A program made the translations under genes and the position numbers. Positions 950 to 4,459 of a stretch of DNA of 34,877 nt are shown piece after piece. The DNA is from Sphaerobacteraceae bacterium. GTDB lineage: Bacteria; Chloroflexota; Chloroflexia; Thermomicrobiales; Thermomicrobiaceae. Numbering within the stretch: position 1 is the stretch's first letter; every line of letters begins with the position of its first letter. The notes beneath the pieces are model-generated. The model was not told the DNA's origin and made no database searches. It saw only the letters and a program-made list of their open reading frames with translations. The stretch lies in the NCBI GenBank assembly GCA_007695115.1, contig REEK01000083.1:1-34877 (forward strand). Reading direction: 5' to 3'.

Positions 950-1132
950 GGTTTGGCGCACATCGCAGGCCCGGCTTGGACCCGGGCCTCTGGACGAACC
1001 TGTCCAGGCATCGATCATCATTGACTCAAAAAATTCCGTGTTTTCCCGGATGTCTCCGCCGCTGAATATGGGTAGGTTTGGGGGAATCACCGCAATCCAT
1101 ATCCATTGAATTGGTGAAGGGAGCACTCACTA

Positions 1133-1909
1133 GTGGCACAGGATATCAAGCTCGATCTCGATCAGCTCCGTCATGCGATCCAGAAGGAGTATCACGAGGT
1201 CGCCTCACAGCCGGATAAAGGGTTCCACTTCATTGTCGGGCGCCCTCTGGCTGAGAAACTCGGTTACGACATGTCCGAAGTCGATCAGCTGCCTGCCAGC
1301 GTGGTCGAGAGCTTTGCCGGGGTAGGAAATCCGTTCGAGCCGGGCCCGTTGAAGTCTGGCGAGATCGTAGCAGACCTCGGCTCCGGCGCCGGGTTCGATT
1401 CGATTCTGGCCATGCGCCAGGTCGGAAAGACCGGGCGGGTGATCGGTGTCGACATGACGCCGTCGATGCTGGAGAAGGCACGAAGCAATGCCGAATCTAC
1501 TGGACATAATCAGATCGAGTTCCGCGAAGGGTATCTCGAAGACCTGCCGATCGCCGACGATTCGGTCGATGTGGTGATCTCTAACGGTGTTTTCAATCTG
1601 ACACCGGAGAAGGAGACGGCGTTTGCCGAGGCATTCCGGATCCTCAAACCGGGTGGGCGGATGCAAGTCGCAGATATTCTCGTCCAGACAGAGGTCCCGG
1701 AATCGGCCAGAAACGAAGTCGATCTCTGGACTGGCTGAATTGCCGGTGCGCTGCTGGAAGCAGCGCTGGAGCAGGTTATCCGCGACGCCGGTTTCGTGAA
1801 CATCGAGTTCAGTGCCCGGCGCTATGACACCTTCTCGGACGCTCCGCAGCAGTCCAGTGCGGATCAGTTCGGTACTCAGGGCGTCAACTTCCGCGCGCAC
1901 AAGCCATAG
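1133..1909 (+). CDS. Candidate selenoprotein: ArsM-like SAM-dependent methyltransferase with in-frame TGA (Sec202)
   Basis: Class I SAM methyltransferase. GTG start with AAGGGAG 9 nt upstream. Motif I is DLGSGAGFDS (81-90), followed by GRVIGVDMTP (101-110) and the LKPGG loop (171-175). These match the arsenite methyltransferase (ArsM) family as I recall it. Codon 202 is TGA (1736-1738). The frame then stays open for 56 codons to TAG, reading IAGALLEAALEQVIRDAGF and onward, a normal ArsM-type C-terminus. Family members read LWxGCxAGAL here, so TGA replaces the conserved Cys. The family cysteines in GCGNP and GFDC are Val64 and Ser90, and no Cys occurs anywhere in the protein. A 7-bp hairpin follows the TGA. 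A terminator follows the gene. The alternative is a nonsense mutation or sequencing error; the true substrate is unknown. Confidence 0.78.
1748..1766 (+). promoter_or_regulatory. Candidate bacterial SECIS hairpin for the ArsM-like gene
   Basis: GCGCTGC-TGGAA-GCAGCGC is a perfect 7-bp stem with a 5-nt loop that has G at its second position. The stem starts 9 nt, and the loop 16 nt, after the TGA at 1736-1738. Bacterial SECIS elements are stem-loops within coding sequence just downstream of UGA with an early loop G, so geometry and loop fit. The hairpin also encodes the amino acids expected by the family. Confidence 0.65.
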
Positions 1910-1941
1910 TCGTCGGCTGCGCGTGATCTACACACACCGGG

Positions 1942-1975
1942 ACCCCTCCCTGAGTATCAGGTGAGGGGTTCTTTT
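1942..1975 (+). terminator. Rho-independent terminator after the ArsM-like gene
   Basis: ACCCCTC pairs with GAGGGGT, with an inner CCTGA-GTA-TCAGG stem stacked inside, followed by TCTTTT. It lies 33 nt past the TAG at 1907-1909 and not after the TGA. This supports the longer reading frame as the true gene end. Confidence 0.85.
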
Positions 1976-3089: not shown

Positions 3090-3872
3090 TCAGCGTGATT
3101 CGAAGGTCGCCGCCATCACCTGATCACCGCTCGGACCGGCAACGTTGGCCGCTTCGACCTCTTCGGTGATCATCATGCCGTCGTAGCTGGACAGGGCGCC
3201 AGGGGCGGTAATGTAGAGCTGGCCGCGGCCATCCTCATCAACGATCAGGTTGCCAACATTGAGGTGTTCGCCGTTCTGCTCATCGACCATCCAGACCACG
3301 TAGGCGTGCTCATCCTGTGGCGGAGCAAGGCCATCAACGACCATGATCGCCCGGTTCGTGGTTGGATCCACGATGATGCCGCCGCCAGCACCAGCAGCGC
3401 CACCTTCGAGGCTCGTCATCCAGCCACCGGGGGACTGCACCATCTCGGCGATATTGGCTCGCTCTTCGGATGCTTCCTCGGCCGCACGATCCATCTCGCT
3501 CTGCATCTGGAAGCTGTTGACGGCAAAGACCAGCGCCAGAGCCGCCGCCGAAGCCGCGGCAATCCAGCCAGTTCGGCCGCTCGGCAGGAGAAATGACTTC
3601 AACCGACTGGCCCGGGTCTGCGGCAATGAAACGGGCTCGACATCGGCCCGCGCGCGCGCCATCAATTGCGTCCGTGCCCGTGCGGGAACTGGCTGTGGCT
3701 CAGCGAGATAGGGAAGGGTCGATACCACCCGTCGCTGCTCATCAACCAGCGCGCGACAGGTAGCACAATGTGCCAGATGCGATTCGACCTGGTCGATCTC
3801 ATCCGGCTCCAGCGCTCCGAGAACATACGGAGCAACTAATTCACTGATGTGGCTCTGATCGCTGCCATCCAT
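3090..3872 (-). CDS. Anti-sigma factor, RskA (anti-sigma-K) type
   Basis: Membrane protein of 260 residues that should hold the neighbouring ECF sigma factor inactive until a signal releases it. The cytoplasmic N-terminus has the anti-sigma zinc-finger motif H32-x3-C36-x2-C39. A single transmembrane segment spans about 102-121 (GWIAAASAAALALVFAVNSF). The extracytoplasmic half (about 150-260) resembles RskA, with VDGLAPPQDEHAYVVWMVD and a C-terminal beta-rich region. Its ATG overlaps the TGA of the sigma gene by one base (TGATG), indicating translational coupling. Signal and regulon are not visible from sequence. Confidence 0.87.
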   Translation of the reverse strand: MDGSDQSHISELVAPYVLGALEPDEIDQVESHLAHCATCRALVDEQRRVVSTLPYLAEPQPVPARARTQLMARARADVEPVSLPQTRASRLKSFLLPSGRTGWIAAASAAALALVFAVNSFQMQSEMDRAAEEASEERANIAEMVQSPGGWMTSLEGGAAGAGGGIIVDPTTNRAIMVVDGLAPPQDEHAYVVWMVDEQNGEHLNVGNLIVDEDGRGQLYITAPGALSSYDGMMITEEVEAANVAGPSGDQVMAATFESR

Positions 3873-4459
3873 CAGTCTGGTAAACCCTCCTGTTTGGACA
3901 ATACGTCCTTCAACTTCTGCATCGCCAGCCGCATACGTGTCTTGATGGTACCCAGCGGCTCATTGAGAAACGCGGCTATCTCGCGCTGGGACAGTCCCTC
4001 GAAATATGCGAGCTCGACCGCCCTCCGCTGTGCATCCGGGAGCGTGTCCATCGCCGTGCGAATCACACCCCGAAGCTCGGTGGCCTCTGCAGCCTCTTCA
4101 ATGTTTACCGTCGTATCAACCTCGCTCCGGAGAACGTCAGTGATATCGACCATGTCGGCCTTCTGCGGCCGTCGCTGGCTCTTGCGAACTTCATCGATCG
4201 CGAGATTATGCGTAATGCTCAACAGCCAGCTGGCATAATTCCCACGGTTCAGTTCATACCGCCCGGATTGCTGCCAGGTACGCATGAACGCTTCCTGAAG
4301 CACTTCCTCGGCAATGCGGCTATCGTGCACGATGCGCACCGCGAAGGAGAACACGGCCCGAGCGTAGCGATCGTAGAGCACGTCGAGCGCATCTACGTCA
4401 CCCTCGCTCATCCGGGCCACAAGCTGATCATCAGGCAGGTCCTGCAAATCAGCGCTCAT
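3872..4459 (-). CDS. ECF-type RNA polymerase sigma factor (SigK/RpoE-like)
   Basis: A 195-residue sigma-70 family protein with only regions 2 and 4. Region 2 covers about 12-95 (LYDRYARAVFSFAVRI, EEVLQEAFMRTWQ, WLLSITHNLAIDEVRK). Region 4 covers about 135-185, with the helix-turn-helix in YFEGLSQREIAAFLNEPLGTI split around the recognition helix. An acidic linker joins them. It is the first gene of a two-gene unit with its anti-sigma factor. A GGAG sits 4 nt before the ATG. A small palindrome, GTGGTAACCAC (4487-4497), lies 28-38 nt upstream and could be an operator. It is divergent from trpS across a 287-bp gap. Confidence 0.92.
   Translation of the reverse strand: MSADLQDLPDDQLVARMSEGDVDALDVLYDRYARAVFSFAVRIVHDSRIAEEVLQEAFMRTWQQSGRYELNRGNYASWLLSITHNLAIDEVRKSQRRPQKADMVDITDVLRSEVDTTVNIEEAAEATELRGVIRTAMDTLPDAQRRAVELAYFEGLSQREIAAFLNEPLGTIKTRMRLAMQKLKDVLSKQEGLPD

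Follow-up and report, generated by a model that had tools for sequence, protein, structure and literature searches.

The window analysed here, a stretch of 34,877 nucleotides, is a contig (C11) of a Thermomicrobiaceae metagenome-assembled genome (MAG) of 3.68 Mb that is 98.5% complete. It carries a gene for a class I SAM-dependent methyltransferase (Table 1), which standard annotation would end at TGA codon 202, in the context LWTG-U-IAGAL. When this codon is read as selenocysteine (Sec), the protein contains no Cys in its 258 residues. The first-pass annotation of this DNA had reported the TGA in this context, the family-like sequence beyond it, and the lack of any other Cys, and these points were confirmed by the reading of the ORF and by full-length homologues. 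A terminator had also been noted past the distal TAG, and a GC-strong hairpin followed by UUUU was indeed found there, although it was not called by the strict scan. Neither a promoter nor a terminator consensus was found by scanning the locus, and an Rfam scan of the locus gave no match above the gathering score.

Upstream, the gene is flanked by a divergent ZnuA-type gene, and the product of its downstream neighbour has no Pfam match and is unassigned. The closest named relatives are found in two Thermomicrobiaceae MAGs, L070 (81% identity) and L071 (79% identity), whose isolate names start with CSSed, which we take to designate soda-lake sediment samples. An anti-sigma factor (RskA/zf-HC2) and an ECF sigma factor are encoded as a pair near the gene (3090-4459 of the window, minus strand), and similar pairs recur next to other family loci.

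Table 1 Features of the methyltransferase locus, in positions of the window.
Feature	Position	Strand	Description and basis
Likely ribosome-binding site GGGAG	1119..1123	+	9 nt upstream of GTG; read directly from the sequence
Sec-containing SAM-dependent methyltransferase gene	1133..1909	+	258 aa with Sec202, GTG start, TAG stop
Val64 codon; CmArsM C72 position	1322..1324	+	Profile alignment to 4FR0
Gly152 codon; CmArsM C174 position	1586..1588	+	Profile alignment to 4FR0
TGA codon 202, Sec202; CmArsM C224 position	1736..1738	+	Homologue column and profile alignment
Bacterial SECIS hairpin	1748..1766	+	Stem 1748-1755/1759-1766, loop GGA 1756-1758, 17 nt past UGA
TAG terminating the methyltransferase ORF	1907-1909	+	ORF reading
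Probable intrinsic terminator hairpin	about 1939..1972	+	-25.1 kcal/mol, fold z -4.0

We searched 400 genomes of the phylum together with GTDB species genomes and obtained 105 distinct members of the family. At column 202, 75 of them have Sec, 29 (about a quarter of the family) have Cys, one has TAG, and nothing else occurs. The homologues run full length through this codon, and no other in-frame TGA was present in family members besides one partial sequence (L068). Compared with the closest relatives, codons differ mostly at third positions both before and after TGA202. On the tree, Sec and Cys were exchanged at least nine times inside the family, seven of these changes being forced by well-supported (starred) branches. 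Two hallmarks of bacterial selenoproteins, an in-frame UGA followed by conserved coding sequence and Cys homologues at the UGA column, are thus both found here. The first-pass annotation had proposed to examine whether homologues exchange Sec and Cys at this position, and had named as grounds for abandoning the idea a column occupied by unrelated residues or a protein found only as a 201-residue fragment. The exchange was observed, and neither of the latter was encountered in the 105 homologues.

The codon is directly followed by a hairpin. In the family, nucleotides 10-17 past the codon pair with nucleotides 21-28, with an early G in the loop, and the hairpin in the window reads GCGCTGCT-GGA-AGCAGCGC. 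It satisfies the constraints published for bacterial SECIS elements (loop 16-37 nt past the UGA, G in the first two loop positions, and MFE ≤ -7.5; PMC13188914). When the stem was counted as present if at least six of the seven outer pairs formed, it was found in 67 of the 73 distinct Sec forms versus only 1 of the 29 Cys forms. The proportion of paired cells was 88.5% in Sec forms, 33-48% when the partner strand was slid, and 45.7% in Cys forms. Pairs were also found to covary, with CG/GC at 11-27 and TA/CG/GC at 12-26, well above shuffles. Local folding energy was only weakly shifted relative to synonymous shuffles (mean z of -0.77 for Sec forms and -0.21 for Cys forms), and it is the register-specific pairing count, not folding energy, that was decisive for the SECIS.

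The host encodes the complete machinery for Sec insertion expected of a selenoprotein producer, with tRNA-Sec(UCA) at 74.7 bits, SelA at 524.5 bits, SelB at 361 bits, and SelD at 367 bits. Among the Chloroflexota genomes carrying a Sec form, 23 of 24 had a tRNA-Sec of at least 55 bits, the exception being 82% complete, and this tRNA was also present in two of the four Cys-form genomes of the Chloroflexota set. Outside this set, the Cys-form genomes of Aromatoleum, Haloarcula, Kribbella, and Halomonas had no tRNA-Sec above the cut-off. The host SelD gene (L037, G000:C39:27511-28437) itself contains an in-frame TGA.

The TAG form was found in Modestobacter sp. DSM 44400 (L121, 6001-6762), and the tRNA-Sec of the same genome (L172, 1501-1596) has the anticodon CUA. 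This strain is a member of the Geodermatophilaceae, which are known for a tRNA-Sec with a CUA anticodon (PMC5330540). The TAG/CUA pair is a natural recoding experiment that supports Sec at this column. As an observation in its own right, the Modestobacter gene adds a methyltransferase to the Sec-UAG proteins of PMC5330540, which names FDH, UGSC, and AhpC.

The homologue column, the SECIS hairpin, the host machinery, and the TAG/CUA recoding are four independent lines that concur. A sense reading of the codon exceeds chance by far, and TGA202 is, on these comparative grounds, almost certainly decoded as Sec. The opposite reading, in which TGA202 truly terminates translation or results from a sequencing error, leaving a 201-residue fragment or a pseudogene, agrees with the end that standard annotation would assign to the gene. 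It was rejected because the same TGA occurs in the same column of 75 distinct homologues of many phyla together with a covarying SECIS, and the Cys homologues, the matching TAG/CUA pair, and the complete Sec machinery also stand against it, so that its probability is negligible.

The best model match of the protein was NF008823, arsenite methyltransferase, at 252.2 bits (244.9 bits in the genome search), which is below the cut-off of 263. Canonical ArsM controls scored 293-364 bits with this model, whereas the family members tested all fell under the cut-off. An AlphaFold2 model of the protein (pLDDT 92.8) matched the ArsM structures 6CX6 (Z 26.3, 2.1 Å over 218 residues), 4FR0 (Z 26.1), and 5EVJ (Z 24.7), and the next methyltransferase match after these enzymes was AtmM (Z 21.8). 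The modelled protein has the ArsM fold and its SAM site, and the SAM-binding core (G83, G85, G87, and D107) is conserved in full. It resembles CmArsM (4FR0/6CX6) and CrArsM (5EVJ) in its SAM motifs and overall profile, and shares with them a W-x-G-[C/U]-IAGAL segment bearing the C224 position.

In characterised ArsM enzymes, arsenite is bound by C72, C174, and C224 (PMC5552862). In the profile alignment to CmArsM, these residues correspond to Val64, Gly152, and Sec202, so that only the C224 position retains a Cys or Sec, in the form of U202. The same holds for the whole family, since none of its 105 proteins has a Cys at the C72 column (Val in 68, Thr in 29, Ile in 5, and Met in 3) or at the C174 column (Gly in 105/105). 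By contrast, in 20 canonical ArsM proteins of the same phylum, the SNCV motif and the C224-type Cys were present in 20/20 and the C72-type GCG in 19/20. The N-terminal CC motif of canonical ArsM is absent from the family. The first-pass annotation had named Val64 and Ser90 as the missing arsenic sites. The former was correct, but Ser90 was rejected: it aligns with a Cys found in only 12 of the 20 canonical proteins and lies outside the trio, the position of C174 being Gly152.

In the maximum-likelihood tree, the family forms a sister clade to canonical ArsM, separated by a branch with 100/100 support. Placement of the protein within canonical ArsM was rejected because of its score, its cysteines, and the tree, and no canonical ArsM exceeded the cut-off in the window's genome. 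Thirteen members from several phyla, including that of the window, have no Cys besides column 202. Since other members bear Cys at varied new places, such as INLC in 50 of the 105, a second thiol is optional and not conserved. Nearly all members keep His32 (101/104), and a second His position (H34) is Ile in the window. As judged from the aligned sequences, the trithiolate site is lost across the whole clade, in line with the earlier proposal that this site would be unusable, and the other arsenic Cys are lost together, for which the first-pass annotation had suggested looking. The idea of a single-chalcogen, Sec-dependent methyltransferase is likewise supported; Sec dependence holds for the window's clade, about a quarter of the family having Cys.

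The gene neighbourhood of the relatives was analysed by clustering ORFs within 3.5 kb; some of these loci are near-duplicates of each other. Same-strand neighbours recurring within 200 bp were rhodanese (13), DsrE (12), OsmC (11), and TusA (4), each at a minority of loci only. MFS transporters, ArsR-rhodanese regulators, rhodanese-MBL proteins, and second methyltransferase copies also recurred, and Pfam confirmed OsmC, TusA, DsrE, ArsR+rhodanese, and MBL+rhodanese. In a wider Pfam count, rhodanese (8), OsmC (7), DsrE (5), and MBL (4) were among the most frequent families; the ORFs counted were chosen by length, and short genes such as tusA may be missed. The neighbours of the 20 canonical ArsM loci instead showed ArsR, plus ArsP twice, and neither rhodanese, DsrE, OsmC, TusA, nor MBL was among the listed families common to at least two neighbours of these loci.

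In-frame fusions of the methyltransferase with TusA were found in a Sec form (L046, 1198-2253, minus strand) and in a Cys form (L077, 6001-7068, plus strand), the TusA-like domain being recognised by its likeness to a Pfam-confirmed TusA neighbour. Directly downstream of the gene in the nearest relatives lie TusA, at +55 in L070, and OsmC, at +56 in L071. The window gene itself stands alone, without adjoining sulfur genes, and no OsmC of the neighbour type was seen in the window's genome. The ArsR-rhodanese neighbour weakly matches the TsoR and BigR models, and ArsR-type sensors of sulfane sulfur are known (PMC12423496). Near the family genes, neither an arsenic transporter/reductase cluster nor a selenium-, tellurium-, or mercury-specific neighbour was recurrent.

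Some minor features of these loci may also be mentioned. OsmC adjoins both Sec and Cys forms (loci L137/L133/L148 and L073/L075/L076/L078), and those OsmC neighbours that were scanned are similar to the NCBIfam 'OsmC-related (seleno)protein' model but score below its cut-off. In L043, a second methyltransferase copy follows the first by about 580 bp, while L099 and L106 have adjacent copies, the first being a Cys form and the second a TGA form in L106. Several second copies also have TGA at the same column. Apart from the Sec codon, the methyltransferase genes of L081 and L084 are each interrupted by one more in-frame stop and are broken copies or assembly errors.

With C72 and C174 gone from the whole family, no tri- or dithiolate As(III) site is possible, and the protein is very probably not a classical trithiolate arsenite methyltransferase; more broadly, an ordinary arsenic enzyme is unlikely. 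Since the classical site cannot form, the substrate may be held by one selenolate or thiolate. TusA, DsrE, and rhodanese are suggestive of sulfane-sulfur transfer, and OsmC and MBL dioxygenase-like proteins of defence against reactive sulfur, so that sulfur, or a thiophilic substrate delivered by a sulfur carrier, is favoured. The explanation that we consider best, with about an even chance of being right, is a Sec-decoded methyltransferase of ArsM fold whose lone selenolate would hold a soft, most likely sulfur-linked substrate; the sulfur link, taken alone, may fall slightly short of even. On the comparative evidence, UGA202 is read as Sec by SelA, SelB, SelD, and tRNA-Sec through the hairpin, and the selenolate of Sec202 (a thiolate in Cys forms) would be the single covalent ligand for a soft electrophilic substrate. 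This substrate would most likely be sulfane sulfur or a sulfur-carried species from TusA-, DsrE-, or rhodanese-type carriers, which, once bound, would take the methyl group of SAM and be released as a methylated thiol or a related product. We put forward more tentatively that this widespread clade depends on its Sec or Cys to methylate sulfane sulfur, either persulfide or TusA-borne, with Sec as the sole acceptor site. To our knowledge, methylation of sulfane sulfur has been assigned to no ArsM-fold enzyme.

By structure and by profile, the protein is nevertheless matched best by arsenite methyltransferases, which counts against a sulfur substrate. These matches agree better with a variant arsenite methyltransferase that would take thiol-borne As(III) (carried by glutathione, bacillithiol, etc.) through a single strong Se-As bond to Sec202, with exogenous thiols or His residues of the protein supplying the two remaining ligands. 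Sec lies exactly at the C224 position, His32 is retained, and ArsR-family regulators recur nearby. TtArsM of Thermus thermophilus, which has one conserved Cys and two His ligands, is reported to methylate arsenite (PMC8649762), so that an arsenic role is conceivable for the family. However, of the binding trio (PMC5552862), C174 is replaced by Gly in every member, the N-terminal CC motif is absent, and the second His is Ile in the window. Moreover, the members tested fall under the NF008823 cut-off, and no arsenic transporter/reductase cluster recurs, while ArsP appeared twice in the canonical control. We thus regard this variant as possible but rather unlikely. The sulfur genes near the relatives lend weight to the earlier suggestion of a substrate other than arsenic, but fall short of proof.

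Two other roles for the Sec residue appear less probable still. Sec binds soft metals more strongly than Cys and could be the single landing site of an enzyme that methylates selenide, tellurite, Hg(II), or some other soft element and so detoxifies it by volatilisation. The clade is present in many Sec-using genomes, and in the part of their work relayed by PMC13188914, Haft and colleagues tie other Sec proteins to organometallic chemistry. Yet no neighbour specific for Se, Te, or Hg recurs, and the Cys form occurs in genomes without a tRNA-Sec above the cut-off, which makes this role improbable. Alternatively, Sec202 may itself be the methyl acceptor or a redox switch, in a self-methylating or peroxide-sensing protein and not a multiple-turnover enzyme. 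The 13 members with a lone chalcogen and no resolving Cys would fit such a function, and the OsmC, rhodanese, and ArsR neighbours suggest stress by reactive species. This proposal is highly improbable, as the SAM-binding core is fully conserved and the free interchange of Sec and Cys suits catalysis as well.

Compared with known systems, the clade of the single-Sec, sulfur-linked methyltransferase favoured here differs from ArsM/AS3MT in its missing Cys ligands, its model score, its fully supported separate position, and its gene neighbours. A Sec-containing arsenite methyltransferase with Sec in a UxxG motif, as in the window, was described in the GOS study of 2008 (PMC2398784, where the ArsM-like protein is PRK11873) and in a review (PMC13188914), and methyltransferase selenoproteins of algae are also in the literature. 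No account of such proteins with a lost trithiolate site or with sulfur-gene neighbours was found. The methyltransferase parts of three NCBIfam models, NF041537 (ArsM_AhpD_UU), NF041536 (ArsM_DUF2284_UU), and NF047649 (MTase_UXPK_star), are close to the window clade, with 180-238 bits for the family members tested and 163-196 bits for canonical ArsM. These models, however, describe multi-Sec fusions or double selenoproteins, whereas the protein studied here has one Sec in a single domain, and no second Sec-bearing domain was found in it; its scores of 231, 217, and 217 bits, respectively, are far below the cut-offs of 510, 575, and 460. TtArsM shares with the window protein a single conserved chalcogen residue instead of three Cys, but is an evolutionarily distant ArsM that uses C77 and lacks Sec (PMC8649762).

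No NCBIfam model tested recognised, above its threshold, a single-Sec, sulfur-linked clade without the arsenic trio, and no paper was found on clade-wide trithiolate loss together with sulfur neighbours. Two papers by Haft cited in PMC13188914 may deal with related Sec methyltransferases, and the one of 2025 (Haft and Tolstoy) may contain a prior description of the clade. The first-pass annotation had suggested that the mechanism or substrate may be new. Sec in ArsM-like proteins is itself already known (PMC2398784, PMC13188914), and the part undescribed in the literature found is that the whole clade lacks the trithiolate site and has recurring sulfur-gene neighbours. Standard gene calling cuts the Sec forms at the TGA, and the nearest model is that of an arsenite methyltransferase. 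If arsenic is not a substrate of the clade, surveys of arsM and estimates of arsenic cycling that include such genes would be off, and if sulfane sulfur is methylated on a single selenium, Sec would have a new function and sulfur carriers would be newly linked to SAM chemistry. The question of the substrate is directly testable, because Cys forms occur in cultured organisms without Sec machinery.
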